The notes below the pieces were generated by a model. The model made no database searches. It was not told where the DNA came from and saw only the letters and a list, made by a program, of their open reading frames with translations. DNA of 29,456 nucleotides from a virus, in the IMG/VR virus record IMGVR_UViG_3300030419_006871, positions 1-29,456 of that record; one strand, given 5' to 3'. Positions within the stretch are counted from its first letter, which is position 1, and each line of letters starts with the position of its first letter. Of this stretch, positions 3 to 29,191 are shown piece by piece. The translations under genes and the position numbers were made by a program.

Positions 3-3000
3 CAGGCTAGAAAAGTTATTAACGACACAGACAAAGTCGAAGCTGAAGATGAAAGTGCGTCGAAAGGTAAGTCTAAGAGCATGATCAATTCCAGCGGCCA
101 TTTGGTGCTGGTAGCCATGAACCAAATCGGGCTTAACAATATTTTTAAAATTGTATCCGATTCGCATCAAGGTGATAATTTTTACCGCAAGCCACGATTG
201 GATTACAAACTGTTAAAGCAATACGGAGAAGGCATAATCGCCTCCTCCGCGTGTCTGGGAGGAGTATACGCCAAGGACTACTGGAACAACCGAGAAGACG
301 GCCCAGAGGCCATCTTGCAGGCTATGCGCACAACTACCCAGCGTATGGTTGATTGCCTGGGAGACCGTTGGTACGGCGAGTTGCAATGGAACAATGTTCC
401 CGAGCAGCATGAACTAAATAAATATGTAATTCAAATGCACGAAGAGTTCGGAATTGAACTCATTTCTACTGCTGACTCTCATTATCCTAGTGCCTCTGCC
501 TGGAAGGATCGAGAACTTTATAAGCGTCTAGGGTGGCTTGGCAAATCAAAAGTACCAGAGTACATGAAGTCTGAGCTTCCTGTCGACATCGATGAGATGG
601 GCATGGAACTCTACCCAAAGAATGGCGACCAAATGTGGGCATCTTATAAGAAATATTCCGAAGAGTGCGGCGTATCTTATGACGATGAGTTGATATACGA
701 CTCACTGGTAAAGACCCACTGGATTGCGCACGAGCGCATCGAAGACTTTTTGCCGGACGATACAGTTCGCCTTCCTGGGTTTGTTATTCCCGATGGTGAG
801 ACTGGAGAGCAAACATTAGTTAAGGAATCTATTGCCGGCCTGAGAAAGCTGGGTCTTGCAGAAAATCAGGAATATATTGACCGGCTTAAGCACGAGCTTA
901 CTGTCATCAATAACCGTGGCTTTAGTAAGTATTTCCTTACGATGAAGGCCATTTCCGACATGGCTAGCCAGCATATGCTTTCTAGCCCAGGAAGAGGCTC
1001 GGCCGCAGGATCTCTTGTAGCATATGTTTTGAAGATTACACAAGTCGACCCTATTAAGCATGGTCTACTGTTTAGCCGTTTCCTTCGTGCAGATGCCACT
1101 GATTATCCGGATATTGACTATGATGTCAGTGATGCTTTTGGTTTGAAAGAAATTCTAGCCAAAGAGTGGGGCGAGACGACTGTCGTTCCTATTTCAAACT
1201 TTAACACTCTACAGTTGAGATCTTTGATCAAGGACATCGGCAAATTTTATGGTGTGCCATTTACAGAAGTCAATACTGTGACTGGTCGCATGGTCAAGGA
1301 AGCGACGCCAAAGGCAAAGTCAGATCATGGCATTAAGGCTGGGCTGTATATCCCAACGTTTGAAGAGGTTATGAAATATTCTGAATCGTTAATCAACTTT
1401 TTGGAGAAGTATCCACACATCAAGACTCATGTCGAATCTCTGGTTGGACAAGTCAGATCAACTAGCCGGCATGCTGGCGGAGTTGTGATCGGTGAAGATT
1501 TGGACAAGCATATGCCCCTAATTTGCTCCGGCGGTGTTGTACAGACACCCTGGTCCGAAGGTCAGAATGTTAGGCATCTGGAGCCTCTAGGGTTTATTAA
1601 GTTTGATTTGCTTGGCCTGTCAACTATTGAGATGATCGAGTCAGCGATTGGCCATATTTTAAAAAGATATAATGGAGTTGAGAATCCTAGCTTTGATGAT
1701 GTTAGGAAATATTACAACGACAACCTTCATCCTGATAAGATTGACTTAGATGATCAAGAGGTATATAAGAATATCTTCCATGAAGGAAAATTTGCAGGAA
1801 TATTTCAGTTTACCAATATCGGTGCTCAGAGATTTTGCAAGAGAGCAAAGCCACAGAATATAATTGATATCTCTGCCATCACTTCTATTTATCGCCCGGG
1901 CCCTCTGAGCGCCGGCGTCGACAAACAATATGTCAAAGCCAAGAGCAGTGCAGAAGATATTGACTATCTTAATGATGTCATTCAAGAGGTGACAGAAGAG
2001 ACAGCAGGATTTCTTATTTTCCAGGAGCAAATCGCGCTCCTGGCACACAAGCTAGGTAAGGGCATTTCTCTTGATGAAGGGAATAAGCTCAGAAAACTTT
2101 TAACGAAAAAGGGGACAGGAAAAGGTGCACAAGAGAAGAACAAGATCCGCGAGAAGTTTGTCGCGGGTTGCAAAGAGAAGGGCATTAAGGAGGGAACAGC
2201 AGGAGACCTCTGGCAGACATTCGAGTACTTTAGCGGCTATGGGTTTAATAAGTCTCACGCTGTTTCTTATTCTATACTCAGTTTTCAATGCGCATGGCTA
2301 CTGAACTACTATCCTGAGTGCTGGATGGCTGCTTTTCTAGACAAGGAGCCCGAATCTAGAAAAGAGGCGGCCATCTCTCTAGCGCAGAAGGCCGGCTTTT
2401 TGATTAAATCACTAGACATCAACACATCCTCCGAACAATGGGAGATTGCAGATGATGGCAAGACCCTTATTCAGCCGCTAAGCTCTATTAAAGGTCTAGG
2501 CGACAAAGCTATCGAACAGATAATCAACAATCGCCCATTTAACAATGTGGAGGAGCTTCTTTTCAATGAGGACATTGTCTACTCGAAATTAAATAAAAAA
2601 GCTCTTGATGTTCTATGCCGGTCCGACGCCCTAGGGTCTTTGATTGACGAGAGGTTCTCCGGCGGTAAGCATTTTTGGATGGCCTGTATTCAGGATAAGC
2701 CAAAAAACCCAAAGAAGTTGAAGGAAAATATCGACCTTTACCATCCAGAAGGGGAGTTTTCAAACGAGGAGCATATTGAGTATATTTCCACCCTTACTGG
2801 CTTATTTCCTTTTCATTTGGTCATGTCCAATCGGGTGAGAGAGTCGATTGAGAAATATTGCGTCCCCCCTCTCGGAAAGTGGGACAATAAATTAAAAATT
2901 GCCTGGTTTATTCCGCGCGAGATACTCGTCAAGAAGACAAAGAACGGCAAGCCATATTGGATTGTTAAAGTGATCGACCAGACTTCGACGACCACAAAAA

Positions 3001-3131
3001 TTAAGTGCTGGTCACCACAAGAGCATGACAGGATTCATATCAACAGGCCTTATGCCGCGAAACTGGATTACAGCGAAGAGTGGGGATTCAGTACGAGATC
3101 CGTTAGCAAGAATTTTAAATTGTTGGGGTAA
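3..3131 (+). CDS. dnaE: DNA polymerase III alpha subunit (DnaE type), 5' end outside window
   Basis: This is the replicative DNA polymerase of the bacterial family C. The frame is open to the left edge, so the start codon and most of the N-terminal PHP domain lie upstream; the first in-window ATG (81) is internal. Visible blocks follow the DnaE order: the end of the PHP region (ADSHYP near 475), the polymerase motif PGRGSAAGSLVAY (about 987-1026), the catalytic aspartates in PDIDYD (about 1106-1123), RHAGGVVIGED, the third catalytic Asp in KFDLLGLS (about 1600-1620), YRPGPLSAG, FNKSHAVSYS (about 2245-2275), a helix-hairpin-helix SIKGLGDKAIEQI and a C-terminal OB-like segment ending at 3131. 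The charged stretch at 3-80 looks like a linker. dUTPase and a GMP reductase homologue follow closely, which fits a replication block. Family assignment is very secure; the role as phage replicase is inferred. Confidence 0.96.
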   Translation, partial: QARKVINDTDKVEAEDESASKGKSKSMINSSGHLVLVAMNQIGLNNIFKIVSDSHQGDNFYRKPRLDYKLLKQYGEGIIASSACLGGVYAKDYWNNREDGPEAILQAMRTTTQRMVDCLGDRWYGELQWNNVPEQHELNKYVIQMHEEFGIELISTADSHYPSASAWKDRELYKRLGWLGKSKVPEYMKSELPVDIDEMGMELYPKNGDQMWASYKKYSEECGVSYDDELIYDSLVKTHWIAHERIEDFLPDDTVRLPGFVIPDGETGEQTLVKESIAGLRKLGLAENQEYIDRLKHELTVINNRGFSKYFLTMKAISDMASQHMLSSPGRGSAAGSLVAYVLKITQVDPIKHGLLFSRFLRADATDYPDIDYDVSDAFGLKEILAKEWGETTVVPISNFNTLQLRSLIKDIGKFYGVPFTEVNTVTGRMVKEATPKAKSDHGIKAGLYIPTFEEVMKYSESLINFLEKYPHIKTHVESLVGQVRSTSRHAGGVVIGEDLDKHMPLICSGGVVQTPWSEGQNVRHLEPLGFIKFDLLGLSTIEMIESAIGHILKRYNGVENPSFDDVRKYYNDNLHPDKIDLDDQEVYKNIFHEGKFAGIFQFTNIGAQRFCKRAKPQNIIDISAITSIYRPGPLSAGVDKQYVKAKSSAEDIDYLNDVIQEVTEETAGFLIFQEQIALLAHKLGKGISLDEGNKLRKLLTKKGTGKGAQEKNKIREKFVAGCKEKGIKEGTAGDLWQTFEYFSGYGFNKSHAVSYSILSFQCAWLLNYYPECWMAAFLDKEPESRKEAAISLAQKAGFLIKSLDINTSSEQWEIADDGKTLIQPLSSIKGLGDKAIEQIINNRPFNNVEELLFNEDIVYSKLNKKALDVLCRSDALGSLIDERFSGGKHFWMACIQDKPKNPKKLKENIDLYHPEGEFSNEEHIEYISTLTGLFPFHLVMSNRVRESIEKYCVPPLGKWDNKLKIAWFIPREILVKKTKNGKPYWIVKVIDQTSTTTKIKCWSPQEHDRIHINRPYAAKLDYSEEWGFSTRSVSKNFKLLG

Positions 3132-16535: not shown

Positions 16536-16754
16536 ATGGAGATTGGCGACACCATAGAATACACGAACTTGGACGGCGACGTGATTTACGGCATTGTGTG
16601 CGAGGGATTGCACAAGTACACATTCGACACCACAGGGCCCAGGAAGTATCATGATGCAGTTAAGGTTGCCTGGATGGATGACGCCAGCGTAACAACCGAA
16701 TTGGTTGATGATATTCTTAATCCCGAGTACGACGGGATAGTGCTAGTTGCATGA
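16536..16754 (+). CDS. GDLV-family small protein, probably leaderless
   Basis: A 72-aa small beta-barrel-like protein (MEIGDTIEY, GDVIYGIVCEG, VKVAWMDD), matching the repeated family pattern G-D-x-[VI], G-x-V, V-x-W. The ATG at 16536 is preferred because it lies seven bases after the P1 -10; ATG 16530 and GTG 16515 overlap the promoter. It has no ribosome binding site. Its stop overlaps the next ATG (ATGA). Confidence 0.75.
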   Translation: MEIGDTIEYTNLDGDVIYGIVCEGLHKYTFDTTGPRKYHDAVKVAWMDDASVTTELVDDILNPEYDGIVLVA

Positions 16755-17134: not shown

Positions 17135-17917
17135 ATGGCATACATGACTGACGAGAATGGAAACTATAAGCGCACGGTGCGCTGTGGCTACTGCTATGAG
17201 AAGGGCCACAACAAGAGTGCTTGCCCCAAGCGCAAGCAAGATCTCAAAGATAATATTGAAACCTACACTAAAGAGCTAGCTAATTCTACCGCGCCTGCTG
17301 ATGATTGGCAGAGGAAGAACACCGAGCGTTATCTCAAGCGTAGCAAAGAGCAGCTTCACAAGATGGAGACTCGCGGGCAAAATCGCAAGTGTGGTTTCTG
17401 TAGTGAAGAAGGCCACACTAGGCGTACTTGTACGCATCGCAAAGCTAAGGTAGCCGAGCAGATGGCCAAGACGATTGCTCTTCGCAAGGGCGCAGCCCAG
17501 AGAATGATTGCTGATGGTTTTGGCCCCGGTGCTTTGATTCAGGTTAACCATCCTCGCAAGTCAGATGAAAGAGTCCTCGCCGTAGTGACCGGAGTGGATT
17601 TTGTGAATATGCGTCCTTCGCATAAGGTTACGAAGGACGACTACTTCGACACTCATCGAGGAGTGAGCTTCCAGTATGTTGTGCCAATCAAGGACACTTG
17701 GGGTGGAGTATACGAGAGCGGAAGTTGTTATGTAAGTCTTAGCCACTTCAATATCGACGACATTCCACAGGCTGAATGGTACCGTTCGCCAAACAATCGC
17801 GAGGCATCGCTTCTCTCAGGAGTCGCGGTAAGCGAGGACCAGCTTCTTACCGAGGAGGCTGTGAACGAGAAGCAGGTAAGCAAGTGGGTTGCTGATAACA
17901 TCGTAGATGTAAGGTAA
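17135..17917 (+). CDS. Double CCHC zinc-knuckle protein with SH3-like domain
   Basis: A 260-aa protein with two CX2CX4HX4C zinc knuckles: Cys17/Cys20/His25/Cys30 and Cys86/Cys89/His94/Cys99. They are joined by a charged helical linker (31-85) and followed by basic helices. Zinc knuckles bind single-stranded nucleic acid in retroviral nucleocapsids and eukaryotic RNA factors and are rare in phages. The C-terminal part (from about residue 128, GFGPGALIQVNHPRKSDERV, VLAVVTGVDF, SFQYVVPI) resembles the GDLV barrel seen in neighbours. It probably binds RNA or ssDNA (inference). It has a clear ribosome binding site and its own promoter P2. It has the longest coding region within 16.5-25 kb. Confidence 0.88.
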   Translation: MAYMTDENGNYKRTVRCGYCYEKGHNKSACPKRKQDLKDNIETYTKELANSTAPADDWQRKNTERYLKRSKEQLHKMETRGQNRKCGFCSEEGHTRRTCTHRKAKVAEQMAKTIALRKGAAQRMIADGFGPGALIQVNHPRKSDERVLAVVTGVDFVNMRPSHKVTKDDYFDTHRGVSFQYVVPIKDTWGGVYESGSCYVSLSHFNIDDIPQAEWYRSPNNREASLLSGVAVSEDQLLTEEAVNEKQVSKWVADNIVDVR

Positions 17918-18144: not shown

Positions 18145-18372
18145 TTGAGCCACACACTGTGGCGGGATAGGGTGGGTACATTGAACATCAAACCAGGAGT
18201 TTTGGTCGAGATCGATGAGGAAGTCGAAACGCTCGGCCACTGCACTCATGGTGTTGTTATCGGAAGATTCGAATACTTAGAATCTGACCGACAAGGGGAT
18301 AATATATGGAGAATCCTCTGCGGCGGCCGGATAATTATTTTGTGGGAAAGAGAGTTTAAGGTAGTAGAGTAA
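18145..18372 (+). CDS. GDLV-family small protein, start uncertain
   Basis: Up to 75 aa. The barrel part is NIKPGVLVEIDEEVETLG, HGVVIGRFEY, IWRILCGGRIIILW, REFKVVE. The longest reading uses TTG 18145, 12 bases after the P3 -10; GTG 18172 or TTG 18181 would start closer to the conserved part and look more like the MKVGDLV relatives. The stop overlaps the next gene's start (TAATG). Confidence 0.6.
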   Translation: MSHTLWRDRVGTLNIKPGVLVEIDEEVETLGHCTHGVVIGRFEYLESDRQGDNIWRILCGGRIIILWEREFKVVE

Positions 18373-18899
18373 TGATGCTAGCAAGTTATATTTTCAAGCC
18401 TCGCAGTCTCGACATCGCTGCAAAGGTCATAGAAAGTTTTTGTAACGACTTCCTACACTATGGACATGAAGGTTTCTACGTCCATTGGAGAGATAATCCT
18501 GCTCACAACAAGCTGCCTGATGGGTATGTAGAGTTTTGGATTGAAACCGAGAACGGCAACATGGATGTCTTTACCGAGACTAGCTTTAACGATGAGCCTC
18601 TGACCGCACAAGATCTTACAGATAATTTGTTCGCTTTTCTCGATGACAATTTTTGGGAAGACGACTGCGAGGGCGGCAAATTGTATACCTTCTATGAGCG
18701 TGAGTTGTCCGAAGTTGTGTCGGCCCTAAGTGTTCGAAACTCAAGGGTTATAGCCTTCGAGGCCGGTAGAAATGCCTGGGTGCATGATATCGGTCAAGGT
18801 GGTAATGGGCATTATCATCGTGTTGACATGGTTGAACACCTCCTAAGCGCTGACTTGCCTAAAAAGTCAAATAGGCAGTTGACTTTGCCTTTGGCGTAA
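18372..18899 (+). CDS. Hypothetical protein (175 aa)
   Basis: A 175-aa acidic protein of unknown function, starting at ATG 18372 or 18375 (tandem ATGs). Visible segments: FCNDFLHYGHEGFYVHWRDN, DGYVEFWIETENGNMDVF, LFAFLDDNFWEDDCEGGKLY and a Gly-rich VHDIGQGGNGHYHRVDM near the C-terminus. Several aromatic and His residues could form a binding site, but no family was recognised. It ends just before promoter P4, whose -35 lies in its last codons. Confidence 0.75.
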   Translation: MMLASYIFKPRSLDIAAKVIESFCNDFLHYGHEGFYVHWRDNPAHNKLPDGYVEFWIETENGNMDVFTETSFNDEPLTAQDLTDNLFAFLDDNFWEDDCEGGKLYTFYERELSEVVSALSVRNSRVIAFEAGRNAWVHDIGQGGNGHYHRVDMVEHLLSADLPKKSNRQLTLPLA

Positions 18900-18906
18900 C
18901 TATGTT
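18879..18906 (+). promoter_or_regulatory. Repeated-class promoter P4
   Basis: TTGACT, 16 bases, TATGTT. Six bases separate the -10 from ATG 18913, the leaderless geometry. Confidence 0.75.
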
Positions 18907-18912
18907 GGTGTC

Positions 18913-19110
18913 ATGGCTATTTGCATTGAGTGTGATGAAGAGTATTCTGACCGTCGTTTGGCGCTCGGATACAGAGTTTGTTTGGACTGTGGACAGGAAG
19001 CAGCCGAGCGTGAGATTTTATTCAAGGCGAAGTGTACCGCGCCTGCCTATAACAAAGGTGGGTACATGTACGTCTCAAGCGTCAATATGGCGAAGGATTT
19101 GGGAAGATGA
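18913..19110 (+). CDS. Zinc-ribbon small protein, probably leaderless
   Basis: A 65-aa protein with two CxxC pairs (CIEC at 4-7 and CLDC at 23-26) separated by a short charged stretch, a typical zinc ribbon. It is followed by a conserved-looking PAYNKGGYMYVSSV segment. ATG 18913 lies seven bases after the P4 -10, with no ribosome binding site. A competing frame at 18902 lacks any motif. Its stop overlaps the next ATG. Function unknown; a nucleic-acid-binding role is plausible. Confidence 0.8.
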   Translation: MAICIECDEEYSDRRLALGYRVCLDCGQEAAEREILFKAKCTAPAYNKGGYMYVSSVNMAKDLGR

Positions 19111-19316
19111 TTACTGGTGATTTGGTTCACATGAAGATTGACGGCGATGTTTTGGAGGCTACATTAGGTGTAGTGACTAGCTCGCTGGGCGATGAACAAT
19201 ACAAGGTTCTCTGGCTTGATGAAGCTAGCTCGGGAGCACAGGGCACATACGCAGCGTATAGCTTGCAGCCCATGAACGATATTGAATATCAGGAGACACT
19301 CTTTGAAAATTGGTGA
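19107..19316 (+). CDS. GDLV-family small protein
   Basis: A 69-aa family member: MITGDLVHMKIDGDVLEATLGVV, YKVLWLDEASSG, and an acidic end lacking the usual LEVI. ATGA overlap with the zinc-ribbon gene upstream. It overlaps the TTG start of the next gene by 14 bases. Confidence 0.8.
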   Translation: MITGDLVHMKIDGDVLEATLGVVTSSLGDEQYKVLWLDEASSGAQGTYAAYSLQPMNDIEYQETLFENW

Positions 19317-19455
19317 TACCGTAAGTGCTGGAAATGTAACAGGAAAGCTGATTCGTATCCAGCCAAAGACGCAAGACTTGGTTCTGCTCGACAAACAAGG
19401 AGAGGTTCACATTGTCCTCAGTACAGAAGCAAGACTCTCGACTTCGACCCGGTGA
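19303..19455 (+). CDS. Very short GDLV-family protein (50 aa)
   Basis: Starts at TTG 19303, seven bases after AGGAG, reading MKIGDTVSAGNVTGKLIRIQ and DLVLLDKQGEVHIVL. The opening is clearly of the GDLV family in a shortened form. It lies between two accepted members and overlaps both. The TTG start and small size lower confidence, but the ribosome binding site and family opening support it. Confidence 0.65.
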   Translation: MKIGDTVSAGNVTGKLIRIQPKTQDLVLLDKQGEVHIVLSTEARLSTSTR

Positions 19456-19648
19456 CTTGCTTCGCCTCAAAGACGGAAGCGGCGCTGTCGGCCTAATACT
19501 AGGCCCAGGCTATATTTCTCCAGCGAAGGAAGTGCAGACAATGCAAGTCTTGTGGAGCGACGATGACGAGCCTTGTGAAATTGATGTGGTAGCCTATGAA
19601 AAAGGGTGGGTGGAGCTTGTCAGTCGCGCAGATGTTCCTACAGTATGA
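19412..19648 (+). CDS. GDLV-family small protein
   Basis: A 78-aa member starting at TTG 19412 behind AGGAGAGG: a ten-residue lead, then LRPGDLLRLKDGSGAVGLILG, TMQVLWSDDDE, KGWVELVS. All parts of the family pattern are present. The -35 of promoter P5 lies in its last codons, and its TGA overlaps the six bases between that -10 and the next start. Confidence 0.75.
   Translation: MSSVQKQDSRLRPGDLLRLKDGSGAVGLILGPGYISPAKEVQTMQVLWSDDDEPCEIDVVAYEKGWVELVSRADVPTV
19617..19644 (+). promoter_or_regulatory. Repeated-class promoter P5
   Basis: TTGTCA, 16 bases ending TTCC, TACAGT. Followed by ATGAGC and then ATG 19651: the same TATGAGCATG context as at P1. Confidence 0.6.
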
Positions 19649-19650
19649 GC

Positions 19651-19845
19651 ATGAAGACGACGAAACCTAAAGTTGGACACCTTGTCCGCATCGATAGTAG
19701 CTACCCGAACACTCAAGCCGCAGGCCAGCTAGCCCTGGTGGTTAAGACTATTGGCATTGAATGTGTTGTGCAGCCCTTGGTCAACCCCGGTGGTCATGGC
19801 AAGCCCTGGTGGTTTAGCCGTACCCATCTTGAGGTTTTGTCATGA
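19651..19845 (+). CDS. GDLV-family small protein, probably leaderless
   Basis: A 64-aa member: MKTTKPKVGHLVRIDSSYP, GQLALVVKTIG, PWWFSRTHLEVLS. ATG 19651 is seven bases after the P5 -10 and has no ribosome binding site. It is the first gene of the tightest part of the paralogue array; its terminal LEV codons (TTGAGG) provide the next ribosome binding site. Confidence 0.8.
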   Translation: MKTTKPKVGHLVRIDSSYPNTQAAGQLALVVKTIGIECVVQPLVNPGGHGKPWWFSRTHLEVLS

Positions 19846-20021
19846 AAGTAGGTGATTTGGTTAGATTTAAGTCCAAGACACTGACAGGCCCCAACCCGAT
19901 TGTCCTAGTGGTCAAAGTTTGGCCTGGGATTGAAGGCTCGGTCGGCGTTGTCAACCTCGACAGCGGAGAGAGGACTGGAAGATTCGTTACTGATCTGGAG
20001 ATTGTAAGTGCAAGTCGGTGA
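19842..20021 (+). CDS. GDLV-family small protein (59 aa)
   Basis: MKVGDLVRFKSKTLTG, NPIVLVVKVWPG, GSVGVVNLDSG, TDLEIVSASR. ATG 19842 overlaps the upstream stop by four bases. Its own stop lies 14 bases inside the next gene: the tail SASR-stop is written by the same bases that encode the next MQVGD. Confidence 0.85.
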   Translation: MKVGDLVRFKSKTLTGPNPIVLVVKVWPGIEGSVGVVNLDSGERTGRFVTDLEIVSASR

Positions 20022-20217
20022 TTTGGTGAGGTGGGTGGCACACACGAAATGGCAGCGCGGCGGCCTAGGAACGATTGTTGATGTAGCAACTATGTTCGAG
20101 GGCAACTCTTATCGAATCATGTGGCATGTGGATATTGAGGATATCAGAGACTACAGGGGAGTTTGGTATACCAAGGCCGACTTTGAAGACGGAACGATTG
20201 TAAATGAAAGTCGGTGA
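20008..20217 (+). CDS. GDLV-family small protein (69 aa)
   Basis: GTG start. MQVGDLVRWVAHTKWQ, GLGTIVDVATMFEG, YRIMWHVD, GTIVNESR. GGAG in the upstream LEI codons lies eight bases before the GTG. It ends with a 14-base overlap into the next member. Confidence 0.85.
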   Translation: MQVGDLVRWVAHTKWQRGGLGTIVDVATMFEGNSYRIMWHVDIEDIRDYRGVWYTKADFEDGTIVNESR

Positions 20218-20383
20218 TTTAGTTGTACAAAAAGGCTGGGAAGCATGCGGCGCAGGTATCGTAACCAGAGTAGCCGCCGAGTCTGCCCTCATTGAACCAC
20301 CCGTGCGGGTCACAGTCCAGTGGCCAAACGGTGAGGTAGATATGTATCGGAGTCAGTTGAAGGTCATCAGTGAAAGTCGGTGA
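20204..20383 (+). CDS. GDLV-family small protein (59 aa)
   Basis: MKVGDLVVQKGWEACGAGIV, VRVTVQWPNGEVDMY, SQLKVISESR. ATG 20204. The ribosome binding site is weak here because the upstream protein ends GTIVN rather than LEIV; this is the one junction of the run without GGAG. 14-base overlaps on both sides. Confidence 0.85.
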   Translation: MKVGDLVVQKGWEACGAGIVTRVAAESALIEPPVRVTVQWPNGEVDMYRSQLKVISESR

Positions 20384-20570
20384 TTTAGTAAATAACACTC
20401 ATGCCCTTGACGGACAAGGTTTGGGTCTTATAGTACAGATAGAGCGTGATGCAACAAAGCGCACGCCAACTTGCGAATACAAAGTAGAGTGGATTCGCCC
20501 GCCGCCTGGATGCCCAAGATATTCTTGGAACAGCGCCGCGTGGCTGGAGATTGTAAATGAAAGTCGGTGA
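20370..20570 (+). CDS. GDLV-family small protein (66 aa)
   Basis: GTG start. MKVGDLVNNTHALDGQGLGL, IVQIERDATKR, YKVEWIRPPPG, AAWLEIVNESR. It carries a Pro-rich loop before the last strand. 14-base overlaps on both sides. Confidence 0.85.
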   Translation: MKVGDLVNNTHALDGQGLGLIVQIERDATKRTPTCEYKVEWIRPPPGCPRYSWNSAAWLEIVNESR

Positions 20571-20778
20571 TTTGGTTAGGCTTCTGGACGATCCAGAGGT
20601 CCACAGGAACAACGGAGAGATTCCCCCTGATGCTATTGGCATCGTGGTCGAGGAGCCTTCGACTGCTTGCTTCCAGAAAGGCGGCGCGCTAGAATCCATG
20701 TGGGTCCAGTGGAATGGCCGATGGGATTGGGACTCGATGTTTGTCGAAGACTTGGAGGTCATCAGTGCAACCCGGTAA
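20557..20778 (+). CDS. GDLV-family small protein (73 aa)
   Basis: MKVGDLVRLLDDPEVHR, DAIGIVVEEPS, MWVQWNGRWDWDS, EDLEVISATR. ATG 20557, preceded by GGAG eight bases upstream within the LEI codons of the previous gene. It has a longer acidic loop 1 and a Trp-rich strand. Confidence 0.85.
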   Translation: MKVGDLVRLLDDPEVHRNNGEIPPDAIGIVVEEPSTACFQKGGALESMWVQWNGRWDWDSMFVEDLEVISATR

Positions 20779-20947
20779 CTTAGTGAAGCATATAGAGATT
20801 CCCAGGCTGGGCGTGGGCCTTGTGACGAAAGTTCGAGGCATACACTGCATGGTGCAGTGGACATACGAAGCTGACGACGCCCGCAAGAATCCTGGTCCAA
20901 CGCTGGAGCAAAACAGTATGCTGGAGGTCATCAGTGCAAGTCGGTGA
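20765..20947 (+). CDS. GDLV-family small protein (60 aa)
   Basis: GTG start. MQPGNLVKHIEIPRLGVGLV, HCMVQWTYEADDARK, SMLEVISASR. The junction copy is slightly diverged (V-G-D has become P-G-N), yet the overlap and the GGAGG position are kept. Confidence 0.83.
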   Translation: MQPGNLVKHIEIPRLGVGLVTKVRGIHCMVQWTYEADDARKNPGPTLEQNSMLEVISASR

Positions 20948-21104
20948 TTTGGTAAAGTTTACAAGTGGTTATACTGGTATCATTTTAGAGTTTACCAAGT
21001 ACAACGGAGTTACTATATTTGTTAATGAGCCGGTTCATTTTAAGAATCCGACGACAATGAGCTTGAAGATGCTAATCCGAACCGCAGAATTGGTTTGTGA
21101 ATAA
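20934..21104 (+). CDS. GDLV-family small protein (56 aa)
   Basis: GTG start. MQVGDLVKFTSGYTGIILEF, VTIFVNEPVHF, RTAELVCE. Last of the uninterrupted run of 14-base overlaps; its TAA overlaps the ATG of the unrelated MGTRS-type gene. Confidence 0.82.
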   Translation: MQVGDLVKFTSGYTGIILEFTKYNGVTIFVNEPVHFKNPTTMSLKMLIRTAELVCE

Positions 21105-21445
21105 TGGGCACTAGATCAAACATATACATTGAAACTGAGCCAGGGACTTATATTGGCACATACTGTCATTTTGACGGATACCCTAGTCATATGTTCCCCA
21201 TACTTGAGAGTATGGCAAACGACGAACTTCAGAGTCACATCCTCATCGCAATGACCCAAGGTGGCATCCGAGTAATGGATAATGTTGCGACAGAGTATAT
21301 TGGTGACGAAAGTTCTACCGTCATACTAACGGACCCGCACATGGAAGATTGGGGGCCTGACTATATCTGGATCAAGTGTCATGATGGTAGCGTGAAGTGG
21401 CGTTATAGTTCAGATGACAGATGGCGCTTGACCCAGGACGAGTAG
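21104..21445 (+). CDS. MGTRS-type conserved phage protein
   Basis: A 113-aa protein opening MGTRSNIYIETEPG, then TYCHFDGYPSHMFPIL. This pattern (MGTRS, strand, Y-C-H-x-D-G-Y) is widespread in phage genomes; its function is not known to me. The C-terminal part alternates strands and loops with many Trp/Asp (EDWGPDYIWIKCHDGSVKW). TAATG overlap with the upstream array member. Promoter P6 lies over its 3' end. Confidence 0.82.
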   Translation: MGTRSNIYIETEPGTYIGTYCHFDGYPSHMFPILESMANDELQSHILIAMTQGGIRVMDNVATEYIGDESSTVILTDPHMEDWGPDYIWIKCHDGSVKWRYSSDDRWRLTQDE

Positions 21446-21455
21446 TTCCTATGTT
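21428..21455 (+). promoter_or_regulatory. Repeated-class promoter P6
   Basis: TTGACC, 16 bases ending TTCC, TATGTT. GTG 21462 starts seven bases after the -10: leaderless geometry. Confidence 0.72.
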
Positions 21456-21461
21456 GTTGGC

Positions 21462-21638
21462 GTGACAGAGACATTCAAAATTGGTGACTTGGTAAGGCCC
21501 GATCGGCTCTGGCATCGACATGAGCTAGGCGTTGTTCTTCAGATTTTTCACGAAGGCTCTTCCAACGAAGGCTTGAAAGTGAAGCTGATAAATGGTGATA
21601 TTCTTGTCGCACCGTCTGATGAGTGGGAGAAAGTATGA
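21462..21638 (+). CDS. GDLV-family small protein (58 aa), probably leaderless
   Basis: GTG start seven bases after the P6 -10, without a ribosome binding site. MTETFKIGDLVRPDRLWHRH, LGVVLQIFHEG, LKVKLINGDILVAPS, WEKV. It overlaps the next start by four bases (ATGA). Confidence 0.75.
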   Translation: MTETFKIGDLVRPDRLWHRHELGVVLQIFHEGSSNEGLKVKLINGDILVAPSDEWEKV

Positions 21639-21898
21639 AAGAAGGTGATCTGGTTAAGTTCGTGGGAGATGCGAATTTTTACAAGGGGCGCGTCGGCGTC
21701 GTGTGCAAGCTATACAGCACACATGGAATTAAGCGGAACGGGATTGAAACGCCAAACAGCGCACTGGTCTACTACGCAGGGGCCGAGAACGATGGACGTG
21801 CCGCACGGGATAGCATGACGAGGAACGAGTATCGTCGTCACGGAACATCTGGCCTCCACCCTATGGCTCTTGCCGAGCTTGAGGTCATCACTCGATGA
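21635..21898 (+). CDS. GDLV-family small protein (87 aa)
   Basis: MKEGDLVKFVGDANFYKGRV, GVVCKLYS, ALVYYAG, AELEVITR. ATG 21635 (GGGAG upstream) is chosen over GTG 21623, which would overlap the previous gene more. It carries an extra charged loop (ENDGRAARDSMTRNEYRRHG), the longest insertion among the simple members. Confidence 0.83.
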   Translation: MKEGDLVKFVGDANFYKGRVGVVCKLYSTHGIKRNGIETPNSALVYYAGAENDGRAARDSMTRNEYRRHGTSGLHPMALAELEVITR

Positions 21899-22104
21899 AA
21901 GTCGGTGATATTGTTACGCTTTCTGCTTACGGCAAGAGGTTGAAGTGCAATAAGATGTTTGTTGGCATGGTCGGTTTGGTCGTGAATGTTGATCCCGTCG
22001 CCGGTATGGTGCATCATAGCAACGCGGTGATGGTTGCATGGAACGGACAAGACGCATCCAAGCCTCATTATCATATCCGCGCTGACCTCAAGCACGCAAA
22101 ATAG
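21895..22104 (+). CDS. GDLV-family small protein (69 aa)
   Basis: MKVGDIVTLSAYGKRLKCNK, GLVVNVDPVAG, AVMVAWNGQDASK. ATGA overlap; the ribosome binding site is in the upstream LEV codons (TTGAGG). It ends in DLKHAK rather than LEVI, just before promoter P7. Confidence 0.83.
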   Translation: MKVGDIVTLSAYGKRLKCNKMFVGMVGLVVNVDPVAGMVHHSNAVMVAWNGQDASKPHYHIRADLKHAK

Positions 22105-22106
22105 AG

Positions 22107-22135
22107 TTTACTACTCGCGACCACGTTCCTACGGT
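22107..22135 (+). promoter_or_regulatory. Repeated-class promoter P7
   Basis: TTTACT, 17 bases ending TTCC, TACGGT (a weak -10). ATGGGC then ATG 22142 follow, repeating the geometry of P1 and P5. Confidence 0.6.
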
Positions 22136-22141
22136 ATGGGC

Positions 22142-22411
22142 ATGAACGAACAATACACATGGAATCAAGCTCCCAGAAACATTTCAGTTGGCACGCTGGT
22201 GCGATTCGTGCCGGGCCGCCCGAGGTTTCGCGGTGAAGACCCGCGTGACCCTGGACACGATAATGATGGGGAGGCTCTCATTGGCCAGTTGGCTGTCATA
22301 GTATCAAGTGGACGCGAAGATGTGCATGGTTGGGGCGGTGTCTTTCGACTTAACATGGTACGAGGCGACTCGCTTTCGCACTTCGGTGACTTCTTGGAGG
22401 TAGTACAGTGA
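22142..22411 (+). CDS. GDLV-family small protein (89 aa), probably leaderless
   Basis: A lead of about 12 residues (MNEQYTWNQAPRN), then ISVGTLVRFVPGRPRF, QLAVIVSSG, VFRLNMVRG, DFLEVVQ. Rich in Arg, Gly and Asp in loop 1. ATG 22142 is preferred over 22136 by the promoter spacing. GTGA overlap at its end. Confidence 0.75.
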   Translation: MNEQYTWNQAPRNISVGTLVRFVPGRPRFRGEDPRDPGHDNDGEALIGQLAVIVSSGREDVHGWGGVFRLNMVRGDSLSHFGDFLEVVQ

Positions 22412-22647
22412 GGTGTCGCCTGAAGCCTGGTGACTTAATCATCTGGCCGGATGGCACTCCTGGCGTGCTGTTGGAGCGATTCGATATGTATGCCAAGCCC
22501 GAAGATCAGAGTGCCCGCCCCCACCCTAGTTGGTGTTGGCACATTGGGTTTAGCGGTCCAACCCCGCGAGATTATAATGAAAAGTATGGAGTCCTAGAAG
22601 TGAATATGTTGAACTTAGGAATGGTGCGGAGGGCACAATGCAAATGA
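22408..22647 (+). CDS. GDLV-family small protein (79 aa)
   Basis: GTG start in a GTGA overlap; the upstream LEV codons give TTGGAGG as the ribosome binding site. MRCRLKPGDLIIWPDGTPGV, LLERFDMYAK, CWHIGFSGP, GVLEVNML. It has a Pro-rich middle loop. Confidence 0.8.
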   Translation: MRCRLKPGDLIIWPDGTPGVLLERFDMYAKPEDQSARPHPSWCWHIGFSGPTPRDYNEKYGVLEVNMLNLGMVRRAQCK

Positions 22648-22823
22648 TGCAAGCAGGAAATCTAGTAATGATTACAAGAACTTCTGTTGGCGTGCCAGCC
22701 AATACGATGGCTCTACTTATCGAACAACAACAGCAGTTGGCCAAAACCCCGGTTTGGCTAGTGCAACTTATGGACGGACGAACCCGTCGATACCTTGAAG
22801 GAGATTTGGAGGTAATCAAATGA
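22638..22823 (+). CDS. GDLV-family small protein (61 aa)
   Basis: MQMMQAGNLVMITRTSVGVP, MALLIEQQQQLAK, VWLVQLMDG, GDLEVIK. It has three possible in-frame ATGs (22638, 22644, 22647); the first is reported. The opening has G-N in place of G-D. Confidence 0.78.
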   Translation: MQMMQAGNLVMITRTSVGVPANTMALLIEQQQQLAKTPVWLVQLMDGRTRRYLEGDLEVIK

Positions 22824-23005
22824 AAGTCGGAGACTTGGTGGTAAGTAAGGCTTACCAGAATCATGCGAGCGTAGTGCCAGCGAAGCTGGTAGTGAGCGTT
22901 TCAAACCGTGCCCTGGAGGGACCGGAGAACCCCTACATCGTCACTGCTGACGACCCTGAAGAGTGGAAGCCAGCACGTAATTTTTTCGTCGTGTCACGCG
23001 CATAG
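22820..23005 (+). CDS. GDLV-family small protein (61 aa)
   Basis: MKVGDLVVSKAYQNHASVVP, AKLVVSVSN, NPYIVTADDPEEW, NFFVVSRA. ATGA overlap behind TTGGAGG in the upstream DLEV codons. It is the last member of the main array, before promoter P8. Confidence 0.83.
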   Translation: MKVGDLVVSKAYQNHASVVPAKLVVSVSNRALEGPENPYIVTADDPEEWKPARNFFVVSRA

Positions 23006-24662: not shown

Positions 24663-25322
24663 TTGGGATACTACGGATATCAGCGAAGAGTGCGAAGAAA
24701 GCCCACACCACGACAAGACAATCCTGAGTTGGTTGCTCGCATTGAAAAGGCAGCCGCTCGCGGCACGTCCTCGCTCACTGATTGGGAGCGTAATTTTATG
24801 GGCTCTCTGCTCGACTCTGCAAAGAAGTGGGGCCGACTGACTGCAAAACAGCACGAGGTCTTTCAGCGCATCGAGAGGAAGACAGACCCAGCCCATGTCA
24901 AGGCTGTAGCTGACTGGCGCGCTAACTTCACTGATGAGATGCGCGAGGCCACTGTGTTCGCAGCCAACTACTACAAGGCTAACCCGCCTTACTTCGGTGA
25001 TGCAGCAGACAGAATCCTTAATGATTCCAACTACATCCCGAGCGAGAAGCTGTATCGCAAGATGGTCGAGAACAAGTACGTCCAGCGTGCCATGGCAAAC
25101 GCCCAGACCGGCGCGCTTTACACCGTCGGCTCGATGGTCACGGTACGCAACTCGACCAGCGTCCGTGGCCGCGCGTACTATCATCGAGGCAAGGATGCTG
25201 TCGTCTTGGAGGCTCAAGACAACCTGAGCGCCACGAAAGGTGCGAGAATCTATAAGGTTCTTCCCGTCGGTGCTGTGGAAGCTATCGAAACTGAGGAACG
25301 CTACCTCAAGAAAAAGCGATAA
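24663..25322 (+). CDS. Phage protein with helical N-terminus and C-terminal SH3-like part
   Basis: A 219-aa protein. TTG 24663 follows CGGAGAAG; no ATG lies near. Residues 20-120 are helical: NPELVARIEKAA, SLTDWERNFMGSLLDSAKKW, GRLTAKQHEVFQRIERK, then NYYKANPPYFGDAADRIL and PSEKLYRKMVENKYVQRAMA. From about residue 150 a barrel-like segment follows (YTVGSMVTVRNSTSV, DAVVLEAQDN, IYKVLPVG), again recalling the GDLV opening. Proteins with the SL-x-DWE block recur in phages without a known role. Single-gene unit between P10 and P11. Confidence 0.8.
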   Translation: MGYYGYQRRVRRKPTPRQDNPELVARIEKAAARGTSSLTDWERNFMGSLLDSAKKWGRLTAKQHEVFQRIERKTDPAHVKAVADWRANFTDEMREATVFAANYYKANPPYFGDAADRILNDSNYIPSEKLYRKMVENKYVQRAMANAQTGALYTVGSMVTVRNSTSVRGRAYYHRGKDAVVLEAQDNLSATKGARIYKVLPVGAVEAIETEERYLKKKR

Positions 25323-28377: not shown

Positions 28378-28650
28378 ATGAGCCTATTTGAAGCAGCAGG
28401 CCTCTACGGCGACCTGAACGACGTGCCCGTGCATATGCGCGCTCAAGTCAAACGCGCCCGTGATGCTCGACGTTACGCAGACATCGACATGCCCAAGGTG
28501 GGCGACCTTGTGATGATTAACTACGGATATCACCCCGGCAAGCCAGCGGTGGTGACTTATGTCAACCCGCCAGACATCCGGTTTGTCTACCCCGATGGCA
28601 AGGAAGGCAGCAGCGGAGTCCGAGGCGTGAAACTTGTGAGCAAAAAGTGA
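28378..28650 (+). CDS. GDLV-family protein with helical N-terminal extension (90 aa)
   Basis: A helical lead (LFEAAGLYGDLNDVP, RAQVKRARDARRYADI) is followed by MPKVGDLVMINYGYHPGKPA, VVTYVNPPDIRFVYPDG and VKLVSKK. The PKVGDLV opening shows family membership well outside the main array. Its stop overlaps the GTG of the next micropeptide (GTGA). Confidence 0.82.
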   Translation: MSLFEAAGLYGDLNDVPVHMRAQVKRARDARRYADIDMPKVGDLVMINYGYHPGKPAVVTYVNPPDIRFVYPDGKEGSSGVRGVKLVSKK

Positions 28651-28728: not shown

Positions 28729-28756
28729 TCTACTGTCCCCAGCAGAGGAGAAGGAC

Positions 28757-28945
28757 ATGACCCGCAAACACTTTCAAATGATTGCCAACGTCGTCAAGAA
28801 CATCGACGACCCGAATGTACGCCACGCGGTGGCGATGGACTTCGCTCTGAAACTCAAGGGCGAGAACCCGCGCTTCGACATTAGCCGCTTCGTCGGCGCA
28901 TGTAACAGCTACGCAACCCCCGACTCGGTAGAGGTTCAATTCTAA
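28757..28945 (+). CDS. Small conserved-looking phage protein (62 aa)
   Basis: MTRKHFQMIANVVKNIDDPN, RHAVAMDFALKLKGENP, RFDISRFVGACNS. The MTRKHF start and NPRFD-x-x-RF-x-x-AC end recur in many phage and prophage small proteins of unknown function. AGGAGAAGG gives a strong ribosome binding site. Probably a helical hairpin. Confidence 0.82.
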   Translation: MTRKHFQMIANVVKNIDDPNVRHAVAMDFALKLKGENPRFDISRFVGACNSYATPDSVEVQF

Positions 28946-29160: not shown

Positions 29161-29166
29161 TATCAC

Positions 29167-29189
29167 GTCCCCAGCAGAGGAGAAGGACA
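29167..29189 (+). repeat. Duplicated promoter leader (second copy)
   Basis: Identical over 23 bases to 28735-28757. Starts GTCCCCAGCAG and ends with the ribosome binding site AGGAGAAGG and ACA. The genes behind the two copies are unrelated, so only the promoter/leader cassette is shared. Confidence 0.9.
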
Positions 29190-29191
29190 AC

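Follow-up and report, generated by a model that had tools for sequence, protein, structure and literature searches.

Why should a virus carry, one after another, a long row of small genes that look like variants of a single domain, and how is such a row maintained? The question is raised by the IMG/VR virus fragment IMGVR_UViG_3300030419_006871 (positions 1 to 29,456; "the window" below means this whole stretch of 29,456 bases), in which an original prediction had placed, at 19107-23005, a tandem array of paralogous one-domain proteins with a GDLV motif and an SH3/KOW-like fold. The array is real, with the genes and coordinates as described, and consists of 18 family-like open reading frames (ORFs) and one unrelated gene (21104-21445). 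Its main feature, which the prediction did not contain, is a dual-coding connector of 14 nucleotides (nt) between neighbouring genes, together with the shuffling of whole genes. The explanation we prefer, with a probability of roughly 0.55, is that promoters drive an array of interchangeable host-interaction proteins and that recombination at the overlap maintains it.

Relatives were collected by searching viral contigs with the neighbouring ATPase, which yielded 80 phage-contig loci, apparently marine, and a family hidden Markov model (HMM) seeded from the window array was iterated across all ORFs of these loci. It reached about 1,190 members (strand counts: 1,195 on + and 2 on -), single-domain proteins with a median length of ~64 amino acids (aa) and a median number of 15 per locus. 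The overlap between neighbours is exactly 14 nt long in 420 of 1,007 distinct pairs and 4 nt long in another 64, and the 14-nt junctions are near-constant, TTGGAGGTCATC[AG]TGAAAGTCGGTGATTTGGT. In the connector consensus, TTGGAGGTCATC-[AG]TGAAAGTCGGTGA-TTTGGT, the segment [AG]TGAAAGTCGGTGA contains the start codon of the following gene as well as the stop codon of the gene before, whose protein therefore ends in ...S-E-S-R; at least 120 IMG/VR stretches carry the connector in its exact 20-nt form. The sequence GGAGG lies within the codons of the C-terminal L-E-V-I motif, six bases ahead of the next start, and the Glu codon of this motif is GAG in 393 of 411 cases (96%) with a gene starting just downstream, against 36 of 86 (42%, equal to the 44% background) without one. 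The Shine-Dalgarno core is present in 396/486 members followed by a gene start and in 26/184 of the others. Because the GAG bias is seen only where a gene starts just downstream, the conservation of L-E-V-I, which had been noted as a terminal protein motif and is real as such, is at the nucleotide level largely that of the next gene's ribosome binding site. In close pairs, the C-terminal tail shows little synonymous change (pS 0.09 versus 0.23 overall).

The near-identical loci L004 and L005 differ by whole-gene insertions or deletions of 148, 145 and 181 nt, with the connector repeat at their bounds. Gene order in the arrays is scrambled: in related pairs adjacency is kept in 25/37, 16/31, 22/53 and 3/29 cases, against 64/66, 38/44, 131/147 and 207/267, respectively, elsewhere in the same loci (Fisher p from 0.0015 to 1e-12, for genome pairs that are not fully independent). 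Single members are 80-95% identical at the protein level between phages whose MoxR proteins are 62-71% identical (26 comparisons), and the flanking DNA on both sides shows only the background identity of 0.49 in nearly all of these. Long-term shuffling of shared neighbours would look similar to direct transfer, and by either route single genes move as units. A modular architecture, with a connector, gain and loss of whole genes, scrambled order and single-gene movement, is well supported. The arrays of many relatives also contain a small GIY-YIG nuclease gene (L004:4793-5053 and ~28 other matches in the fetched loci), which often bears an ...INESR tail and the connector and may be a passenger or possibly a rearrangement helper; as the shuffling enzyme it was rejected, being a frequent array gene but not a universal one, and absent from the window.

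We infer recombination as the mechanism: as the junctions are nearly identical, recombination between any two of them would add, remove or swap whole genes with frame and ribosome binding site intact. The first part of the connector encodes the final strand of one protein and at the same time supplies the following gene with its ribosome binding site, the 14-nt core supplies the next gene's start and the previous gene's stop, and each cassette encodes one single-domain, predicted SH3/KOW-like barrel of ~60 residues. Or perhaps the junction is a translational device only, and the shuffling is ordinary phage mosaicism in which breaks elsewhere kill a gene? The overlap does serve two frames and a ribosome binding site, and the start codons drift in non-overlapped members (GTC 65% versus 90%, GGT 69% versus 100%). 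However, base conservation continues past the overlap, with TTG or TTA for Leu6 in 87% against 38% in gene bodies (an early-codon A/T preference could account for part of this bias), and the order of genes changes much more quickly in the arrays than in the remainder of those loci, which leaves this account doubtful. Several points nevertheless weigh against recombining cassettes of host-directed proteins. The connector may be conserved only for the two frames and the ribosome binding site, recombination being a by-product; only three connector-bounded insertions or deletions were read at base level, and the more distant cases of gain and loss include compound changes. Host targets do not follow from the SH3-like fold by itself, the members include no detected representative of a known anti-defence family, and the DNA methyltransferases found between array genes are only suggestive. 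The wider claim, that the connector is a universal recombination connector through which single-gene SH3-like binders pass between members of a widespread group of ocean phages, giving each phage its own host-targeting repertoire of about 15 to 33 proteins, falls slightly short of even odds.

How many members does the window contain? Scores were taken from a leave-window-out profile, built only from other phages (E<0.001 at Z=1000). It supports 16 of the 18 array ORFs, the weak ones being 19303 and 22142, and recovers 20 of the 28 candidate genes in the window. Of the further copies proposed outside the array, it supports 16536, 18145, 23241 and 28378; the scores of 11177, 16751, 23672 and of the C-termini of 17135 and 24663 are not significant, nor is that of 23941. 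The 17135 and 24663 C-termini were also rejected as members by sequence in hhalign (probability 5.5% and 11%). The earlier figure of about 25 members is thus too high, and the defensible count is 20 by sequence plus one by predicted fold, 24663, for which AlphaFold2 predicts barrel strands at residues 158-161, 178-188, 195-201, 208-211 and 215-217. The family relationship itself reaches beyond GDLV and is not confined to the first seven residues. When everything through GD[LI]V was removed and the remainder was compared with up to 200 shuffles of each gene itself, 14 of the 18 array genes as well as 16536, 18145 and 23241 beat every shuffle; one shuffle each scored better for 19303, 22408, 22820 and 28378, and 15 for 22142.

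The fold-recognition results agree with the SH3/KOW-like assignment. AlphaFold2 confidently predicted a five-strand barrel for member L of the array (100 relatives; predicted local distance difference test, pLDDT, 88.7; strands 6-9, 17-23, 35-40, 43-48 and 52-56; least certain in the loop 24-34), which places the family, at the level of predicted fold, among the five-stranded small barrels of the SH3/KOW-like superfamily. An hmmsearch with A1 against solved structures ranked NusG KOW chains best (2xhc from Thermotoga, E=1.3e-4; 2lq8, E=0.0035), a significant profile similarity to the NusG C-terminal KOW domain; the NusG architecture, with NGN and KOW in one protein, is not found in these single-domain proteins. 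Foldseek matches include Spt5 KOW, Tudor and CarD (TM-score ~0.55-0.74, E>0.05) as well as CdnL, Mfd and ribosomal SH3-like domains, none individually significant, and the best fold matches among viral models (BFVD) are small unnamed proteins, with Gp30.5 (Q400H0) and a DUF2158 phage protein also found. The Pfam cut-off for KOW (PF00467) was not reached (E<=0.1 in only 2 of the 100 members compared, with E=0.005 as the best value), nor was the curated cut-off for DUF2158 (PF09926; 4 of 100 at E<=0.1, best E=0.0021; member F, 12 bits against a cut-off of 22.3). The conserved columns belong to the turn and the core (G4, D5, L6, V7, G18, I/V19-20, V38, W40, L52-I55) and the others are free. Insertions occur in the first loop in 41% of members and in the second in 46%, so that, as had been proposed, the loops hold most of the length change. 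No surface columns conserved across members were found and no catalytic signature was seen among them; the net charge spans about -8 to +6, and a common nucleic-acid binding role is unsupported by this spread.

The main rival on function holds that the members regulate transcription or translation in the manner of NusG/Spt5 KOW or CarD-RID proteins, with RNA polymerase or the ribosome as their common site of action, and that their divergence tunes different promoters or operons. It draws on the Thermotoga NusG match and on the resemblance to Spt5 KOW, CarD, CdnL, Mfd and ribosomal proteins, but SH3-like barrels reach such scores with many unrelated families, and the range of charge and the lack of conserved surface columns are unlike a single nucleic-acid or RNA-polymerase site; we regard it as unlikely. 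Since there is neither a catalytic signature nor a shared surface motif, the barrels are most likely small binding proteins, each of which would occupy a different target in the host, a protein or a nucleoprotein site of the machinery for defence, transcription or translation. Varied host targets are plausible and fit the missing surface motif and the wide charge spread. A set of binders with different targets, comparable in its logic to the SPO1 host takeover module though built on one fold with interchangeable junctions, best fits these features together with the position and turnover of the genes; the host targets themselves, and with them an anti-host function, we infer.

The region had been suspected to be early, and promoters were indeed found ahead of its operons. 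Their form is TTKACN-N15/18-TAYRKT, commonly TTTACT-N16/17-TATGTT with CC just before the -10 element. The window has 18 such sites on the + strand (11 with CC) and none on the - strand, against ~0.5 expected, and 13 of the 18 lie ~25-65 bases ahead of the first gene of an operon; in the relatives, 67 sites with CC were found on the + strand and 0 on the -. This host-type form makes early transcription likely: strong sigma-70-like promoters would fire the operons early, and the overlaps would couple translation within them. On the preferred reading, a large marine T4-type phage would here keep its early accessory genes, directed at the host and arranged as a row of one-gene cassettes. The operon leaders at ~28735-28760 and 29165-29190 share CCCCAGCAGAGGAGAAGGACA directly before different small genes, a repeated leader or ribosome binding site.

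Could the barrels instead be immunity or superinfection-exclusion factors aimed at other phages and not at the host? Fast turnover and exchange between co-occurring phages would suit a conflict between phages equally well; membrane-like segments in only 12 of 1,044 members make classical membrane exclusion unlikely and nothing points positively to such a role, which we regard as very improbable. Selection on the members was assessed by the ratio of nonsynonymous to synonymous change (dN/dS), which stands at 0.22 in the array, against 0.09 in the larger genes beside it in the same pairs; by region, close pairs give 0.12-0.22 apart from the short overlapped tail, and orthologues ~0.17 overall. 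The members are kept intact and functional by purifying selection while evolving faster than their neighbours, and positive selection in the loops, or diversification through fast-evolving loops, is unsupported, as dN/dS shows no loop excess. Recent tandem duplication within one phage, with copies decaying or drifting neutrally, has the tandem layout and one clear recent duplicate (L047, 98.6% identical) on its side, but is refuted as the main process, and the description "locally expanded" falls with it, because the best blastp match lies in another genome for 1,062 members and in the own genome for 18, the window members have zero detectable blastp matches among themselves, and a dN/dS of ~0.2 means that the copies are not decaying.

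What kind of phage carries these arrays? A Gp23-type major capsid protein was found in 6/6 and 7/9 array-carrying records, the exceptions being a 62-kb fragment and a bacterial bin, so that all 13 large virus records tested have it; the window ends short of the capsid region. Judged by this protein, the carriers are, broadly speaking, T4-type phages. Their whole records, of 158-293 kb, mostly contain 13-33 strong members (exceptions: G018 with 2 and G021 with 5). No relatives were found by tblastn of two members (E<=0.01) and of the 17135 gene against named phage genomes. The 20-nt connector also occurs in several contigs of marine metagenome-assembled genomes in GTDB, which belong to unrelated phyla, and in a WOR-3 bin; the bins are therefore likely to be contaminated, and these matches are not taken to indicate a host. 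Many other GTDB matches (e.g. Nostoc), in which the 20-mer is present without family members, were discarded. In the candidate division WOR-3 bin77 chromosome (L220, CP070664.1), eleven members lie at ~2.078 and 2.143 Mb, with three exact connector copies and without Gp23, as a phage fragment, a prophage or a misassembly.

Features of the array and related elements in the window (E, leave-window-out profile)
Feature	Coordinates	Strand	Evidence
Member F, GDLV, 69 aa	19107..19316	+	E=3.9e-6
Member G, TTG start, 50 aa, weak, possibly truncated	19303..19455	+	E=0.09
Member H, 78 aa	19412..19648	+	E=5.7e-8
Member I, heads its operon, extended at the N-terminus	19651..19845	+	E=3.5e-9
Member J	19842..20021	+	E=1.7e-11
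Member K; 14-nt connector 20008-20021 shared with J	20008..20217	+	E=3.8e-11
Member L, SH3-like barrel model; connector 20204-20217	20204..20383	+	E=4.4e-15; AlphaFold2 pLDDT 88.7
Member M; connector 20370-20383	20370..20570	+	E=2.5e-13
Member N; connector 20557-20570	20557..20778	+	E=4.7e-14
Member O; connector 20765-20778	20765..20947	+	E=1.8e-10
Member P; connector 20934-20947	20934..21104	+	E=2e-7
Unrelated small gene within array (MGTRSNIYIE...), no Pfam match	21104..21445	+	ORF list, Pfam scan
Member Q	21462..21638	+	E=8e-8
Member R, 87 aa, 4-nt overlap with Q	21635..21898	+	E=2.5e-6
Member S	21895..22104	+	E=2e-8
Member T, diverged, weak	22142..22411	+	E=0.32
Member U	22408..22647	+	E=2.1e-4
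Member V	22638..22823	+	E=3.2e-8
Member W, last of array	22820..23005	+	E=2.4e-5
Outlying member B	16536..16754	+	E=0.0011
Outlying member E	18145..18372	+	E=8.2e-4
Outlying member X; a relative of X is a whole-gene indel, L004 vs L005	23241..23519	+	E=7.7e-5
Outlying member BB, domain in C-terminal half	28378..28650	+	E=7.2e-6
Core gene, helical N-terminus and C-terminal SH3-like barrel (predicted); kin by fold, not sequence	24663..25322	+	AlphaFold2 pLDDT 91.5
Sigma-70-like promoter TTGACT-N16-TATGTT, operon 18913, 19107, 19303, 19412	18879..18906	+	motif scan
Promoter-like TTGTCA-N16-TACAGT, overlaps end of member H, ahead of 19651 onward	19617..19644	+	GTTCCTACAGT exact match at 19634
Sigma-70-like promoter for Q-R-S	21428..21455	+	motif scan
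Sigma-70-like promoter for T-U-V-W	22107..22135	+	motif scan

Beyond the array, ORF translations of the window were read as a DnaE-like polymerase, dUTPase, IMP dehydrogenase, ClpP and GroEL, and Pfam identified a UvdE endonuclease and, downstream of the small genes, a MoxR/AAA ATPase and a DUF2201 metallopeptidase; two tRNAs lie upstream of the small-gene region. The DnaE-like (PolIII alpha) polymerase (3-3131) was judged from its translation only, and its presence beside a T4-type capsid, the latter seen in the large relatives, would be an unusual combination. The core gene 24663-25322 has orthologues in 55 loci, directly upstream of the MoxR ATPase, and in its fold search nitrile hydratase beta subunits rank first, with a low TM-score. 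The gene 17135-17917, a conserved early gene with two CCHC zinc knuckles, a C-terminal domain of unassigned type and no Pfam match, has orthologues in 41 loci.

If the array is indeed a set of interchangeable host-interaction proteins, it would offer a library of small one-fold binders that phages have selected for action against bacterial targets, with more than 1,000 natural variants in the present sample alone, and further arrays could be discovered simply by a search for the connector. It would also mean that overlapping genes, usually ascribed to compactness, can make gene order freely interchangeable, and one could then test whether exact exchange of cassettes, as opposed to random mosaicism, drives the evolution of accessory regions in phages.

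The fold, single small SH3-like phage proteins and clustered small early genes are already known; for one-fold arrays with a constant dual-coding connector and whole-gene exchange, no description was found in the open-access literature, which is weak evidence of absence. The DUF2158 (YodC-like), small KOW/SH3-like and T4-type Gp30.5-like proteins are small G-D-[LV] barrels of the same fold, but the members match them weakly, below the curated cut-offs where these are given, and the described families are without such arrays. The SPO1 host takeover module consists of 26 genes, mostly small and early, which form several short operons, have strong promoters and ribosome binding sites and encode products that act on host functions (PMC6873191). 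The array likewise has clustered small genes in short promoter-headed operons; the SPO1 proteins are not described as paralogues sharing a single fold, and neither a constant 14-nt connector nor a shuffling of cassettes is reported for that module. By analogy only, integron cassette arrays are also made of single-gene units with near-identical bounds that are gained, lost and reordered whole. In contrast to integrons, the boundary here is itself coding and nearly all cassettes share one fold; attC sites and an integrase were not noticed, and no integrase was found among the array-interspersed genes scanned, whole genomes not having been searched for one. In archaeal viruses, conserved upstream sequences mark sets of small early anti-defence genes (PMC11065993); there the shared sequence is a promoter region ahead of diverse genes, whereas in the present arrays the constant element is part of the overlap between genes of a single protein family.

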